A stretch of 64,000 bases of DNA from Vreelandella boliviensis LC1 (GTDB taxonomy: Bacteria; Pseudomonadota; Gammaproteobacteria; Pseudomonadales; Halomonadaceae), in contig NZ_JH393257.1 in the NCBI RefSeq assembly GCF_000236035.1, positions 1,645,735-1,709,734 on the forward strand, read 5' to 3'. Numbering within the stretch: the stretch's first letter is position 1; each line of letters opens with the position of its first letter. The notes below the pieces were generated by a model that saw only the letters and a list, made by a program, of their open reading frames with translations, ran no database searches and was not told where the DNA came from. The position numbers and the translations under genes are program-made. This document shows, piece after piece, positions 24,908 to 45,834 of this stretch.

Positions 24908-27073
<2,166 letters not shown>

Positions 27074-27100: not shown

Positions 27101-27128
27101 AACCCGCATCCTGGGATGCGGGTTTTTT
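27101..27128 (+). terminator. Intrinsic terminator after katG
   Basis: AACCCGCATC-CTGG-GATGCGGGTT is a 10-bp stem followed by six T. It is the gene-free start of the 27074-27376 interval, which otherwise holds only the palindromic repeat. Confidence 0.92.
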
Positions 27129-27178
27129 ATTGCGTGTTTATATGCTCAACTCAGGAAGGAACGTTAATCAGAGGCTCC

Positions 27179-27346
27179 CTAGGAGCCTGTCCGACTTAAT
27201 ACTGATCTACTGCGAATCCCGGTATTTTGGCCAACTTTATTCGATCGATTTCGTTAAATAGCGCGCTATTCGCCTCAATCGATCGATAAATTTGGCTCAA
27301 GATCCGTGCTTCTCGCGACGATCGGCCAAGCCGGACAGGCTCCTAG
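27179..27346. repeat. 168-bp palindromic repeat element, copy 1
   Basis: The ends read CTAGGAGCCTGTCCG and CGGACAGGCTCCTAG (15-bp perfect inverted repeat). Inside, TCGATCGATT/AATCGATCGA arms flank AATAGCGCGCTATT (27257-27270), a perfect palindrome within 1 bp of the element's exact centre. It has no coding capacity. Copy 2 at 44455-44622 differs at only four positions. CTAG at both ends may be a target duplication or part of the terminal repeat. It behaves like a miniature inverted-repeat (MITE-like) element; the parent transposon is not in the window. Confidence 0.85.
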
Positions 27347-27376: not shown

Positions 27377-27565
27377 ATGAAACGCAGTAAATGGATATGG
27401 CTAGTATGGGCAGTTGTCTTGCTTTGCTATGTGGTGCCTTACACCTTTTTGAGCCAGGTGTCGCAATGGTACGGCAGCTTTCTGTTTTGGGCATGTGCCG
27501 GGTTAGTCATCATTGCTCTGAACGTGTTTATCACCAAAGATTTTAAGGAACACAGCGATGACTGA
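27377..27565 (+). CDS. Small two-helix membrane protein, symporter partner
   Basis: A 62-aa protein with two hydrophobic helices (about 6-25 and 34-53) and a charged C-terminus (TKDFKEHSDD). Such short proteins often precede sodium:solute symporter genes as accessory subunits of unknown function. Its stop overlaps the symporter start by 8 bp, so the two are translationally coupled. It starts 30 bp after the palindromic element; the ribosome binding site is weak. Confidence 0.75.
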   Translation: MKRSKWIWLVWAVVLLCYVVPYTFLSQVSQWYGSFLFWACAGLVIIALNVFITKDFKEHSDD

Positions 27566-29048
27566 ATCGCTAATTTGGTGGTCCATTGCTATCTACTTAT
27601 TGGTCGCTATAGGCATTGCCATTCTATCGCGCCAAGGCCCTGCCGAGAGCATGTCGGGTTACTTTCTGGGCAACCGACAAATGAACGGCTTTGTCTCTGC
27701 ACTGAGTTACAGTGCCACTACCTACAGTGCTTTTATGATGGTGGGTTTGGCAGGCCTTACCTATGCCGGAGGCGTTGGCGCGCTAGGCTTTGAAATTATC
27801 TATTTTGCCGGTGTTTCTTTAGTGGCTATCTTTGGGCCCAAGTTTTGGGCAGTGGGCAAGAAGTTTGGCTTTGTGACCCCTAGTGAAATGCTGGGCCATC
27901 GCTATAACAGCAAGCATGTTGCCATGGCTGTCTCAATTGCCAGCTGCATCTTCCTGATTCCCTACTCGGCCGTTCAGCTCGCTGGCGTGGGTTACCTGCT
28001 GCAAGGCATTACCGATGGGGCGATTACCTTTACCACCGGGGTGGTGCTAGCCACGGTGATCGCGATCTTCTTCTCTTATATCGCCGGGATTCGTTCGGTG
28101 ATGTGGACCGACTCCCTTCAGGCCATCATGATGATCGTCGCCTCAACGCTGGTGGCTCTCTTGGTTATTCAGGGCTTGGGTGGTTTCGGCGCGCTGTTCG
28201 ATTCGCTTGCAACAGAGCACTCCCAGTCGCTCACGGTGCCTGGCCCGGGGCTATTCAGCTTTGTCACTTTCCTGGGTCTCACCATTCCTTGGTTCTTCTT
28301 TAGCCTGTCTAATCCGCAAGTCAGCCAGCGCTTGTTTATGCCCTCTTCGCTTCGCTCAATGCGCCACATGCTGATTGGTTTTTTGGTGTTTGGCTTTATT
28401 TACACCCTGGTCTCCGTGCTGTGGGGCTTCTCTGCCCTGGTCGCTTTTCCCGGTCTTGAGGGCGCGGATTTAGCGACACCAACGCTGCTGGCCTCAGAGT
28501 TTGTCCCACCCGTACTAGGCGTCATCGTGATGGTCGGCATTATGGCCGCAGCCGTGTCCACCATTGACTCGATCATGCTGACCCTGGCCTCCATGGTCTC
28601 CCGTGATGTGTATGCCAACGTCAAACCTAACGTTAGTGAAAAGCGCCAACTGCTGGTGGGTAAATTTGTGGTGCCGGTAATTGCACTAATGGCGTTAGCC
28701 TTCGCCGAACTGCAGCTTAACCTGATTGCGGTGCTGTCAGTGGCTGCATCGTCGGGCCTAGTCGCCATGGTGCCCGCGCTAATCGGTGCCTTCTATTGGA
28801 AGCGCGGCACGGCCGCCGGTGCACTGGCGAGCGTGGTGGGCACTAGCGCCTTTGTACTGTTGATGTATGCCACTGGTAACTCGCTGCTGGGCCTGCCTGC
28901 TGGCGTATGGGGCATTGTGGTGGCGAGTGTGCTGTTTGTTGGCGTAAGTCTCGTGACCAAACCCCATCAAGCCACCACGGATGCTTTCTTTACCGCCATC
29001 ACAGAAGAGCTGAGCAAAAAGCGCCGCCCTTTAACACCAAACCGTTAA
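27558..29048 (+). CDS. Sodium:solute symporter (SSS family)
   Basis: A 496-aa protein with about 13 transmembrane helices. Family text includes GYFLGNRQMNGFVSALSYSA and SNPQVSQRLFMPSS, and the sodium-site segment MAAAVSTIDSIMLTLASMVS. The wording is closest to the pantothenate/short carboxylate group. The substrate is unknown. Its 3' end overlaps pxpC by 18 bp in convergent orientation, so 5-oxoproline or a related acid is possible but not shown. Confidence 0.85.
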   Translation: MTESLIWWSIAIYLLVAIGIAILSRQGPAESMSGYFLGNRQMNGFVSALSYSATTYSAFMMVGLAGLTYAGGVGALGFEIIYFAGVSLVAIFGPKFWAVGKKFGFVTPSEMLGHRYNSKHVAMAVSIASCIFLIPYSAVQLAGVGYLLQGITDGAITFTTGVVLATVIAIFFSYIAGIRSVMWTDSLQAIMMIVASTLVALLVIQGLGGFGALFDSLATEHSQSLTVPGPGLFSFVTFLGLTIPWFFFSLSNPQVSQRLFMPSSLRSMRHMLIGFLVFGFIYTLVSVLWGFSALVAFPGLEGADLATPTLLASEFVPPVLGVIVMVGIMAAAVSTIDSIMLTLASMVSRDVYANVKPNVSEKRQLLVGKFVVPVIALMALAFAELQLNLIAVLSVAASSGLVAMVPALIGAFYWKRGTAAGALASVVGTSAFVLLMYATGNSLLGLPAGVWGIVVASVLFVGVSLVTKPHQATTDAFFTAITEELSKKRRPLTPNR

Positions 29049-41645: not shown

Positions 41646-42770
41646 ATGCACACCACCATGACGTCGCTGCTGGCGGCTGACTCGCCAGCGGTGATGACCC
41701 CCACAACGCCCCATTTGCGCATTGAAGCGGTGACCAAGTGTTTTGGTACTTTTACCGCGCTGGACAACATTTCTCTGGCCATTAACGAAGGTGAGTTTGT
41801 CTGCTTTTTGGGCCCCTCCGGCTGCGGCAAAACCACCCTGCTGCGTACCATTGCAGGGCTAACCCAGCAAACGTCGGGCACGCTGATTCAGCGTGACAAG
41901 GATATTTCCCGGCTGCCCACCCAAGCGAGGGACTTCGGCATTGTGTTCCAGTCCTACGCGCTGTTTCCCAACCTGACGGTGTTTAACAATATCGCCTATG
42001 GGCTGCGCAACCGTCGAGATGACCGAGCGCGTATCGACAAGCGGGTCGCCGAACTGCTCGCCCTGGTGAACCTGACCGGCAGCGAAGACAAGTATCCGGC
42101 GGCGCTGTCTGGTGGTCAGCAGCAACGTGTTGCGCTGGCGCGGGCGCTGGCCACCGAGCCAGGCTTGTTACTACTGGATGAACCTCTCTCGGCGCTGGAT
42201 GCCCGGGTACGCGGGCACTTGCGGAGCCAGATCAAAGCCCTCCAGGCGCGCCTGGGCGTAACCACCATTATGGTCACCCACGACCAGGAAGAGGCGCTGA
42301 CCATGGCCGACCGCATCGTGGTGATGAACCACGGCGTGATCGAGCAAGTGGGCACCCCGGCCCAGATCTACCACCAGCCTGCCAGCGCCTTTGTGGCCTC
42401 GTTTATTGGCAGCATGAACTTTCTGGAAGTGACCGCACAAGGCAATAACCGAGCGCTATTGGGTACCACGCCTTGCGCCTGCCTGCCGCATACCCTGAAA
42501 TTGGGCCAAGCAGCCCAGTTGGCCATCCGCCCGGAGGCCGTGGCCCTTAGCCGTGAAGCGGGAGCGCTGAAAGGCGAGGTAGTTGGCATCGAGTTTTTGG
42601 GCCCATTTCAGCGGGTTACCCTGCGCCTAACGGAAGCCGATCAAACGATTATCGCCGATGTGCCCAGCCGGGATAGTAGTGACCTCGACCTGTTTGTGGG
42701 GCAGATGCTATCGATTCATCTACCCGCGGAGGCCGCCCGCCTATACCCCGCAGGGAGTAGCCAGCAATGA
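41646..42770 (+). CDS. phnT: 2-aminoethylphosphonate ABC transporter ATP-binding protein
   Basis: The 374-aa protein has Walker A GPSGCGKTT, signature LSGGQQQRVALARAL, Walker B LLLLDEPLSALD and switch His (MVTHDQEEALTMAD), with a C-terminal TOBE-like regulatory part (about 290-374). It matches the AEP-type importer ATPases. GGAG lies 8 bp before the ATG; the N-terminus carries about 18 extra residues. The stop overlaps the permease start (ATGA). Confidence 0.92.
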   Translation: MHTTMTSLLAADSPAVMTPTTPHLRIEAVTKCFGTFTALDNISLAINEGEFVCFLGPSGCGKTTLLRTIAGLTQQTSGTLIQRDKDISRLPTQARDFGIVFQSYALFPNLTVFNNIAYGLRNRRDDRARIDKRVAELLALVNLTGSEDKYPAALSGGQQQRVALARALATEPGLLLLDEPLSALDARVRGHLRSQIKALQARLGVTTIMVTHDQEEALTMADRIVVMNHGVIEQVGTPAQIYHQPASAFVASFIGSMNFLEVTAQGNNRALLGTTPCACLPHTLKLGQAAQLAIRPEAVALSREAGALKGEVVGIEFLGPFQRVTLRLTEADQTIIADVPSRDSSDLDLFVGQMLSIHLPAEAARLYPAGSSQQ

Positions 42771-44458
42771 TGGCTAAGACCTTTACAATGTCGGCGACCA
42801 AGCCGTCGCTAGAGTCGCTGATCCGTTTGTTAGCGTTACTCGCTGGCGTCGCCTTGCTGGTGGTGGGCCTGCTGTTTCCGCTGGTGGCCATGCTGGTTAA
42901 AAGCCTGCAAGACCGCGCCGGCGACTTTATAGGCCTGGCCAACTTTGTTCAGTATTTTCAAACCCCCGCGCTGGTCAATTCGATTGTCAACTCGTTGCGG
43001 GTGGCGCTGATGACCACCGTAGTGGTGGTCGGCTTGGCGTTTGTATGCGCCTACGGGATTACCCGCACCTGCATGCCGGGCAAGCGGCTGTTTCGCATGC
43101 TGGCGATTCTGCCCATTCTGGCGCCGTCATTACTGCCCGCCATTAGTCTGGTTTACCTGTTCGGCAACCAAGGGTTTCTGCGCGACGTACTGGCAGGCCA
43201 CTCGATTTATGGGCCGATTGGCATCGTAATGGGCATGAGCTTCTGGATATTTCCCCACGCGCTGATGTTGCTGACCACCGCGCTAACCAACAGCGATGCG
43301 CGGCTCTACGAAGCGGCCGAAGCGCTGGGCACCCCCAAATGGCGTACGTTTTTGACTATTACATTGCCCGGTGTGCGCTACGGGCTGATTTCCTGCCTGT
43401 TTGTGGTATTTACCCTGGCGATCACCGACTTTGGCGTGCCAAAAATTATCGGCGGTCAGTTCAGCGTGTTGGCCACCGATGTCTACCGCCAGGTCGTCGG
43501 CCAGCAGAACTTTCAGATGGGCGCGGTGGTCAGCGTGATTCTGCTGTTACCTGCAGTGCTCTCGTTTATCGTTGACCGCTGGATACAGCGCCGCCAGGTG
43601 GCCCAGCTCTCGGCCCGGGCGGTGCCATGGCAGCCTACCCCCAGCCCGCTGCGGGATTGGGTCTTTACACTACTTTGCTACGCGGTGGCCGGGGCCATTG
43701 TGTTGGTGATCGGCACCGCGATGTACGCCTCGCTGGTGCAGTTCTGGCCCTACAACTTATCGATCACCTTTGTGCACTACACCTTCCAAGGCATGGCCGA
43801 TGGCGGCTGGGGAGCGTGGTTTAACTCGCTCAAACTCGCTTTTAGCGTGGCCGTGGTGGGTACCTTAGTGATCTTCTTTAACGCCTGGCTGATCGAAAAG
43901 AGCGAAGGCTACCGCCCGCTGCGCCAAGGGCTGCACTTTATGGCCATGCTGCCCATGGCGGTGCCCGGCATGGTGCTGGGGCTTGCCTATATTTTCTTCT
44001 TCAATCAGGCGGGCAACCCGTTTAACTGGCTATACGGCACGCTGATGATTCTGGTGCTTAATACCCTGATTCACTTCTACACCGTGTGCCATCTCACCTC
44101 GGTCACCGCGCTTAAACAGCTCGACCCCGAGTTTGAAGCGGTGGGGGCGTCACTCAAAGTACCGTTTTGGACGACCTTTTGCCGCGTGACGCTACCGGTA
44201 TCGCTGCCCGCGGTACTGGATATATCGGTGTACCTGTTCGTCAATGCGATGACCACGGTGTCCGCGGTGGTGTTTCTCTACAACAGCGACACGCGGCTGG
44301 CTTCGGTGGCGGTTCTCCATCTGGATGAAGCCGGTTACTTCGCCAGCGCGGCGGCCATGGCGGTGCTGATTTTCCTGACCTCGCTAGTGGTGAAGTTGCT
44401 GCATACCGCGCTTACCCATGTGTTGTTAAACAACGCCCAGCGCTGGCGCATGGCCTAG
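42767..44458 (+). CDS. phnU: 2-aminoethylphosphonate ABC transporter permease (two domains fused)
   Basis: The 563-aa protein has two binding-protein-dependent permease domains, each of about six helices, with two EAA-type loops: EAAEALGTPKWRTFLTITLPG and FEAVGASLKVPFWTTFCRVTLP. The fused form replaces separate PhnU and PhnV. The last codon is followed by a TAG that belongs to the CTAG terminus of palindromic element copy 2, so the element abuts or created the gene end. Confidence 0.9.
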   Translation: MMAKTFTMSATKPSLESLIRLLALLAGVALLVVGLLFPLVAMLVKSLQDRAGDFIGLANFVQYFQTPALVNSIVNSLRVALMTTVVVVGLAFVCAYGITRTCMPGKRLFRMLAILPILAPSLLPAISLVYLFGNQGFLRDVLAGHSIYGPIGIVMGMSFWIFPHALMLLTTALTNSDARLYEAAEALGTPKWRTFLTITLPGVRYGLISCLFVVFTLAITDFGVPKIIGGQFSVLATDVYRQVVGQQNFQMGAVVSVILLLPAVLSFIVDRWIQRRQVAQLSARAVPWQPTPSPLRDWVFTLLCYAVAGAIVLVIGTAMYASLVQFWPYNLSITFVHYTFQGMADGGWGAWFNSLKLAFSVAVVGTLVIFFNAWLIEKSEGYRPLRQGLHFMAMLPMAVPGMVLGLAYIFFFNQAGNPFNWLYGTLMILVLNTLIHFYTVCHLTSVTALKQLDPEFEAVGASLKVPFWTTFCRVTLPVSLPAVLDISVYLFVNAMTTVSAVVFLYNSDTRLASVAVLHLDEAGYFASAAAMAVLIFLTSLVVKLLHTALTHVLLNNAQRWRMA

Positions 44459-44622
44459 GAGCCTGTCCGACTTAACACTGATCTACTGCGAATCCCGGTA
44501 TTATGGCCAACTTTATTCGATCGATTTCGTTAAATAGCGCGCTATTCGCCTCAATCGATCGATAAATTTGACTCAAAATCCGTGCTTCTCGCGACGATCG
44601 GCCAAGCCGGACAGGCTCCTAG
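44455..44622. repeat. 168-bp palindromic repeat element, copy 2
   Basis: Same length, ends and centre (AATAGCGCGCTATT, 44533-44546) as copy 1 at 27179-27346, with four substitutions. It lies exactly between the transport operon and phnW. Its left CTAG contains the permease stop codon. When transcribed it would form a very long hairpin that could uncouple the two operons. Confidence 0.85.
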
Positions 44623-44651
44623 CGGCATCTAGACCGCCGCCGTGCTTGCAG

Positions 44652-44683
44652 TTAAAGTGGTTAAAAAAATCTGGTATAGACCA
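44652..44683 (+). promoter_or_regulatory. phnW promoter with overlapping PhnR operator
   Basis: TTAAAG (44652-44657), a 17-bp spacer and TATAGA (44675-44680) form a plausible promoter. The operator TGGTATAGACCA (44672-44683) covers the -10 hexamer and is the reverse complement of the one at 40509-40520. Expected transcription start is at or next to the phnW ATG (44686), and no Shine-Dalgarno sequence is present. Confidence 0.6.
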
Positions 44684-44685
44684 AA

Positions 44686-45834
44686 ATGAACGATCATATT
44701 GAAGAGCCCTATCTATTAACCCCTGGGCCGCTGACGACGTCCCGTGCCACTAAAGCCGCCATGCTGCGCGACTGGGGCTCCTGGGATGACGACTTTAATC
44801 AGGTAACGGCCGACATTCGCACCCAGTTACTTGCCATGGCCGAGGCGCCAAGCGACGAGTACGCCTGTGTGCCTATGCAGGGCAGCGGTACCTTTGCGGT
44901 TGAGAGTGCCCTGGCCTGCGCAACAGATCCCAGCGGCAAAGTGCTGGTGCTGATGAACGGTGCCTACGGCAAGCGCGCGGCGCAACTGCTCGCTACCATG
45001 GGTCGCGCTTATACCACGCTGGATAAAGGCGACTACCGGCCGCCACAGGCTGATGAAGTCGCAGCACGGCTGCAGCAAGACCCAGCGATTACCTCGGTAT
45101 TTCTGGTGCACTGCGAAACCAGCTCGGGCATTTTGAACCCGCTAGACGCCATCGCTGACGTGGTGCGCACCCAGGGAAAAACGCTCATCGTCGATGCCAT
45201 GAGTTCTTTTGGCGGCATCCCCATCAGCCTTGCGCAAACACCCATTGACGTGCTGGTTTCTTCTGCCAATAAGTGCATCGAAGGTGTGCCGGGTTTTGGC
45301 TTTGTGATTATTCGCCAGGCGCTGCTTGAGGCAGGTAAGGGGCGCGCTCACTCGTTGAGTCTGGATCTGCACGCCCAATGGGAATATATGGAACGCACCG
45401 GCCAATGGCGCTTTACGCCGCCCACGCATACCGTGGTGGCCTTTCAGGCAGCGCTTGCCCAGCACCGGGAAGAGGGTGGCGTGCCGGGGCGCTGCGCGCG
45501 CTATACCCGCAATCGTGATGCGTTGGTAAAAGGCATGCGGGCGCTAGGCTTCAGCACCCTGTTGGAAGACGAATGGCTATCGCCGATCATCACCACCTTC
45601 TTAAGCCCCACTGACCCAGCGTTTGAGTTTCACAGCTTCTACGCGGCGCTAAAGGCGCGCGGGTTTTTGATCTACCCCGGCAAGTTGACCGAAGTGGAGA
45701 GTTTTCGCATCGGCTGCATTGGTCAGTTAGGCACGACGGTGATCGCGCAACTGTTAAACGCCATTCAAGACGTGCTAGCGGATATGGATGTTTCTCTCAT
45801 TGCTGACCTATCTTCACCATCAGGGAGCGCCTAA
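44686..45834 (+). CDS. phnW: 2-aminoethylphosphonate:pyruvate aminotransferase
   Basis: A 382-aa PLP enzyme converting 2-aminoethylphosphonate and pyruvate to phosphonoacetaldehyde and alanine. It opens with the family text [19 protein letters not shown], and Lys196 (SSANKCIEG) is the Schiff-base lysine, preceded by [10 protein letters not shown] with its PLP Asp. The stop overlaps the phnX start (TAATG). It may be translated from a leaderless mRNA. Confidence 0.95.

Follow-up and report, generated by a model that had tools for sequence, protein, structure and literature searches.

A 168-bp palindromic element with IS1182-type ends and a probable conserved RNA hairpin in Vreelandella boliviensis and other proteobacteria

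Two near-identical palindromes of 168 bp lie in the window, i.e. the whole 64,000-nucleotide stretch of the Vreelandella boliviensis LC1 genome that was analysed, and they raise the question of how they came to be inserted and why their interior should fold upon itself. In bacteria, MITEs are generally regarded as debris of insertion sequences that does not last long. The presence of related hairpins of nearly the same length and shape in many proteobacterial genomes suggests a folded RNA worth keeping.

Two palindromic copies and their insertion sites

The copies, located at 27179-27346 and 44455-44622, differ by four mismatches (169 bp paired at 98% in their alignment), and the first-pass annotation had placed both exactly, together with their single palindromic centre. 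Both are assigned to the minus strand of the window, here termed the R strand as the one whose RNA folds better, the plus strand being the F strand; covariance model R2 scores copy 1 at 165.8 bits on the minus and 71.3 bits on the plus strand, and copy 2 at 171.2 bits. The predicted RNA fold reaches −84.4 kcal/mol on the minus strand (z −11.7) and −77.2 kcal/mol on the plus strand (z −9.0), with none of 200 shuffled sequences being as good in either case. A six-frame reading of copy 1 revealed no long coding frame, in agreement with the earlier statement that the element lacks coding capacity.

The ends of copy 1, CTAGGAGCCTGTCCG, do form the 15-bp perfect inverted repeats that had been described, yet this length includes an outer CTAG (27179-27182 on the left and 27343-27346 on the right; 44455-44458 and 44619-44622 in copy 2) which represents the target duplication, so that the perfect terminal repeat proper measures 11 bp. 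In copy 1 it comprises GAGCCTGTCCG at 27183-27193 on the plus strand and its counterpart at 27332-27342 on the minus strand, both read from the window sequence and the former also from the IS1182 ends described below. Further inside lie the arms TCGATCGATT (27241-27250) and AATCGATCGA (27277-27286), and between them, on the R strand, the apical region GAGGCGAATAG-loop-CTATTTAACGA (27251-27276), a conserved motif of the superfamily; the 14-bp perfect palindrome AATAGCGCGCTATT at 27257-27270 has its centre 1 bp off that of the element. Alignments of copies place the 5′ side of a conserved internal loop, CGATCGTCGCGAG, at 27312-27324 and its 3′ side, CGCAGTAGATCAG, at 27202-27214, both again on the R strand.

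Both insertion sites are empty in relatives. The left flank of copy 1 was matched in 71 of the 82 genomes of the genus, and among eight aligned loci those of G046 and G001 keep both flanks, with a single CTGG and a single CTAG, respectively, in place of the element; the right CTAG was likewise delimited by empty-site alignment. A query made of the two flanks of copy 2 with one CTAG between them matched 29 of the 82 genomes, 25 of which span the site (the remainder are the host and three matches that are tiny or cover one side), and the site is empty in all 25 aligned relatives, reading CTAG in 14, CTAA in nine and ATAG in two. Since these relatives hold a single target, each window copy is a precise net insertion of 164 bp which duplicated the 4-bp target CTAG, 160 bp lying between the two CTAG copies. 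The letters AGGCTCC to the left of copy 1, previously taken for a possible scar, lie at 27172-27178 and occur in the empty site of G046, thereby ruling out the scar reading. The CTAG of one element also serves as a target for further insertions; at one locus (L191) two elements stand back to back with one CTAG in common, and at another (L299) a single CTAG joins an IS1182 to an element.

Copy 2 adjoins an ORF for an ABC-type permease (42767-44458, plus strand, PF00528), whose TAG stop is contained in the left CTAG as its final three bases, so that the stop survives the insertion. Within 42767-45834 this copy stands between the permease gene and a gene for a class V aminotransferase (PF00266); since both genes have plus-strand orientation, it may split an operon. 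Copy 1 is situated between a haem-peroxidase gene of catalase-peroxidase size (24920-27073, PF00141) and a sodium:solute symporter gene (27558-29048, PF00474), behind an apparent terminator hairpin at approximately 27103-27128. At one site common to three genomes (L039, L066 and L076), an inverted repeat resembling a terminator (CTCGCTGACGA...TCGTCAGCGAG, or a closely similar sequence) encloses an element or a remnant within its arms. Another insertion site is occupied in several species, by full elements at L009, L055, L061, L064, L065 and L180 and by an 82-bp form at L068, and this common occupation indicates that some insertions date far back and have been passed on vertically, those of the window being recent.

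Distribution of the element and its IS1182-type ends

The host assembly (4.2 Mb in 21 contigs, the window lying in contig 1) harbours ten full copies with 91-100% identity to copy 1, in addition to an 82-bp form and remnants. Two of the ten, C2:468437 and C2:475275, sit in a duplicated block in which 2991 of 3167 positions are identical. Within the genus, a match of any length is present in 23 of 82 genomes, and in other genera of the family end pairs exactly 168 bp apart, retrieved by pattern alone, are homologous inside. A Pseudomonas plasmid carries a 167-bp element; in plasmid searches the window element retrieved two records, of which one came up with the L308 query as well, and L320 retrieved none. 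A search of phage records with the element led to nothing, and the exact core pattern had no occurrence in viral contigs.

Beyond the family, 390 genomes of the order were sampled with a first covariance model built from 44 sequences, and 34 of them, from 22 of 142 genera, contain the element. A second model, built from 49 divergent copies, located it in 94 of the 369 genomes sampled for the class (75 of 271 genera) and in 52 of the 398 sampled for the phylum (18 of 212 genera, with four families outside the class); these samples overlap. Many element-bearing genomes hold several copies, their numbers being lower bounds since no more than seven candidates in each genome were scored by covariance, under strict filters. 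The length was 166-169 bp in 104 of 108 measured elements, a count made with a covariance model that favours full length and with which pattern and BLAST matches agree. A variant of 195 bp was observed in G318.

The end pattern CTAGGAGSCTGTCCG, run over the 82 genus genomes with at most one mismatch, revealed that G008 and G038 contain longer elements bounded by such ends, and the first ORF fragment of the long element in G008 matches transposase domain PF05598. From a PF13751 search 20 regions were taken, six of which (L123-L127 and L132) contain elements of approximately 1.6 kb with CTAG(G/C)AG(C/G/T)CTGTC(C/G)G(A/G)CTT at both ends, allowing one mismatch at most; two more such IS1182-type elements were found in G112 (L166 and L167). 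NCBIfam identifies the transposase of L124 as IS1182 with 384 bits against a cut-off of 270, and the partial, partly masked ORF of L306 reaches 171 bits against the same NCBIfam IS1182 cut-off. An exact-end scan of genome contigs yielded 16 stretches; a single Thiocystis MAG accounts for seven, all contig ends, in which the end is followed by an ORF resembling, by eye, an IS1182 transposase; the repeated element of this MAG has 19 terminal bases identical to copy 2 (CTAG counted). The IS1182 of G582, a genome with multiple copies of the element, shares 21 terminal bases at one end (CTAG counted) and differs from the eighth base on at the other. Among 30 IS1182-type loci in element-bearing genomes, five (L282, L284, L293, L299 and L306) have matching ends on both sides and 25 do not. 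The host assembly, perhaps incomplete in its 21 contigs, holds no IS1182 with matching ends, all 21 end matches being known copies or remnants, and a PF13751 match is absent from 10 of the 21 element-bearing genomes that were checked.

The ends of the elements fall into two classes, with GTC(C/G)G(A/G)(C/T)TT at both ends in 94 of 108 and GTCCGAGAAT at both ends in 13, none being mixed and one unclassed. Both classes have IS1182 counterparts and both enclose a common interior, and this combination of two agreeing end classes over one interior suggests that the ends adapt to whichever transposase is at hand. IS1182-family DDE transposases would recognise ends of the type GAG(C/T)CTGTC(C/G)G and move the element in trans.

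The element shares its ends with IS1182 elements, inserts precisely and duplicates CTAG, and its mobility is well supported. It displays the features of a MITE, being short and noncoding, with terminal inverted repeats, a CTAG duplication evident from empty sites, and dispersed copies. The searches proposed at the outset brought to light further copies with varied flanks, empty sites in related genomes and, in other genomes, insertion sequences of the IS1182 family with the same ends; copies outside the window exist, and only two of the ten in the host lie in a duplicated block. These flanks, empty sites and ends support the original notion of a recently active, non-autonomous element with IS-like ends which is moved in trans and whose hairpin may matter as DNA or RNA.

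L021 (1501-1541) and L071 are degenerate elements at one common locus, and the end of the former reads CTAGCAGTCTGTCGGGCTT, which is an IS1182 end type of other genomes and unlike the full copies of the host. In G008, positions 1028-3969 of L082 constitute a long, perfect-looking inverted duplication comprising two IS1182 pieces and an IS3-like insertion, which may be an assembly artefact.

The hairpin interior and its possible explanations

In the alignment of the 49 divergent copies, compensatory changes occur on both sides of 54 of the 60 base pairs (22 of 60 in a nearer set), and paired cells amount to 94.3%, versus 70.5% (sd 0.6) when shuffled and 30.7-46.4% when slid, in a model and alignment that favour G-U pairs. 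For the most part the copies retain the apical GAGGCGAATAG/CTATTTAACGA as well as CGTAGCGAG and CGCAGTAG, the strands of the internal loop, although the most distant of them include exceptions. To set RNA against DNA, each element was paired with its own reverse complement, giving G-U no credit. All mismatches taken together comprise 371 G-U versus 192 A-C (about two to one), while those isolated between two Watson-Crick pairs comprise 183 G-U versus 31 A-C in 83 elements, and 43 versus 4 in 25 class-level elements, counts which are inflated by the relatedness of copies. With one sequence per 85% cluster (40 clusters) isolated mismatches number 92 G-U versus 18 A-C, with 31 clusters for, two against and seven tied; with 18 clusters at 75% they number 39 versus 13, with 11 clusters for, two against and five tied. 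Because G-U pairs in RNA, and an excess of this kind on one strand would not be expected of a DNA hairpin, the RNA of the R strand is likely to be, or to have been, under selection.

Of 108 elements, 106 have their better fold on the R strand. The stronger claim that every element does so was abandoned, as it fails for L201, which folds better on the F strand, and for L210, in which a tied motif test set the strand opposite to that of the model and which was kept so in the mismatch and fold counts. The gene-context, isolated-mismatch and end-class/fold counts cover elements of at least 155 bp, and three class-level loci with short flanks were left out of the motif comparison and the isolated-mismatch count.

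We consider it highly probable (approximately 0.85) that the copies belong to a superfamily of MITEs which is mobilised by IS1182 and carries a conserved RNA hairpin, and that the interior, near-constant in length across many families, is a hairpin of its own rather than a remnant of an IS1182 gene. Internal deletion of an insertion sequence is the textbook origin of a MITE, and the ends held in common with IS1182 elements would suit an internally deleted IS1182 copy, yet similarity ends past the termini (by eye) and in 29 IS loci the hairpin model has no match within IS1182, the only one there belonging to the neighbouring element at L299; on this search a simple deletion derivative was rejected for the interior, and we hold such an origin to be very unlikely. 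A chance or segmental repeat devoid of mobility could draw upon the two host copies in a duplicated block, but is scarcely conceivable, already refuted as it is by empty sites with single targets and by the many flanks. An ordinary MITE whose palindrome is kept at the DNA level only (as a cruciform, as a footprint of the transposase or a host protein, or by arm repair), with RNA playing no part, would have IS1182 as a full explanation of mobility and ends, would be consistent with the lack of orientation preference relative to genes and with a strong fold on both strands, and might also account for paired changes through copying between the arms. A DNA hairpin would treat its strands alike, however, whereas isolated G-U mismatches far outnumber A-C on one strand, the R strand folds better in almost all elements, and the apical and internal-loop motifs stay constant while the surrounding stems change; we therefore find it rather unlikely that DNA alone is concerned.

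The hairpin might instead have been adopted by the host as a transcription terminator or an mRNA-stabilising 3′ element acting in cis behind genes. At 80 distinct sites, three duplicate sites having been left out, a simple ORF script located 58 gene 3′ ends versus 24 gene 5′ ends within 60 nt, a single element inside an ORF, and 20 gene 3′ ends that use the terminal CTAG as stop, all of which would favour such a role. The 3′ excess may, however, only show where insertion into CTAG is tolerated, since 112 of the 133 CTAG sites of the window lie inside ORFs, and the window copies have no T run after the hairpin. Moreover, relative to gene 3′ ends within 60 nt there is no orientation preference (28 R versus 30 F), which misfits a one-strand RNA signature: the even orientation leaves that signature unexplained by a role in the neighbouring mRNA and a cis role of the R strand without support. 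Such a function thus appears improbable.

As regards what a conserved RNA hairpin on an IS1182-mobilised MITE might do, transcription of the element would start from an adjacent gene or promoter, the transcript would fold into a hairpin of approximately 80 bp, and a host RNA-binding protein or RNase might bind its internal loops; such binding could make insertions beside genes tolerable, allowing the element to persist. One may go further and regard it as a mobile RNA gene, in which an RNA conserved in shape and loops travels as MITE cargo through much of the phylum, its ends changing with each IS1182 and its core being kept for a function in trans, to the benefit of the host or of itself, a proposal that is tentative and, in our estimation, short of an even chance. 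At gathering score, Rfam gave no matches in the window between 26500 and 45500 or in 15 related loci. If the interior acts in trans, a widespread RNA would be missing from Rfam; if it has no such role, these are striking, long-lived selfish hairpins for which partner transposases and CTAG targets have been identified. A MITE that keeps almost one length while its stem changes in a compensatory manner, and that occurs in 75 of the 271 genera sampled for its class, a quarter, would be a mobile structured RNA, and offers a way of testing whether it is their RNA for which small palindromic repeats are retained.

Known systems and shortened forms

REPs and REPINs, the latter being REP doublets, are moved by a tyrosine transposase, and the IS1182-type ends reported here argue against membership of that group. 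No description of the present element family was found in the open-access literature, subscription journals lying mostly outside its coverage, and of four signature strings eight open-access texts contained one and none contained two, the string in PMC5453526 being inside a primer. The partner type has a precedent in IS1182-related MITEs of 160 and 169 bp in Methanosarcina acetivorans, the partner of which is ISMac2 (PMC3852290); for the 160-bp MITE the table of that paper gives the values 26 and 4, which we take as the sizes of the inverted and direct repeats. By description, these resemble the present element in partner family and lengths, but they are archaeal, and the table passage is silent on a conserved RNA interior (PMC3852290). 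ISPse1 of Paracoccus, described in PMC3281130 as an IS1182-family element of 1653 bp with 16-bp ends and a 4-bp duplication, resembles the partner elements reported here but is an autonomous insertion sequence. MITEPsy1 of Pseudomonas syringae (100 nt), as presented in PMC3189936, is related to ISPsy2 (listed as IS5?) and is likewise small and non-autonomous, duplicating CTAG or YTAA, but its ends, GGAAGGTCTGAAAAAGCC, are other than those found here.

The YPAL/RU-2 sequences of Yersinia, which the passages concerned describe as palindromic and intergenic, with a length of 167-168 bp and a proposed effect on RNA stability (PMC2229807, PMC2759123), match the present element in length, palindrome and intergenic place when compared by description rather than by sequence tool. 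They are, however, described as having no terminal inverted repeats and duplications of 3-26 bp, in contrast to the terminal repeats and 4-bp CTAG duplication observed here, on which basis YPAL membership was rejected. Correia/NEMIS and ERIC are mobile hairpins which, in the accounts given in PMC10969869 and PMC2229807, alter the fate of the transcripts carrying them through RNase III or RNase E; they are likened to the present element by description only, and differ in having TA at their termini (table in PMC2229807) and in their hosts.

Shortened forms of 82, 72, 65 and 84 bp with intact ends were observed at L011, L068, L154, L145, L164, L175 and L165. That of the host measures 82 bp and occupies positions 1501-1582 of L011 (C1:125136-125217), and forms of this length are present in several genomes. 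Judged by eye, those of 82, 72 and 65 bp have their junctions at direct repeats of 3-5 bp (GGATT, GCA and TCGC), as though slippage across the hairpin had produced them.
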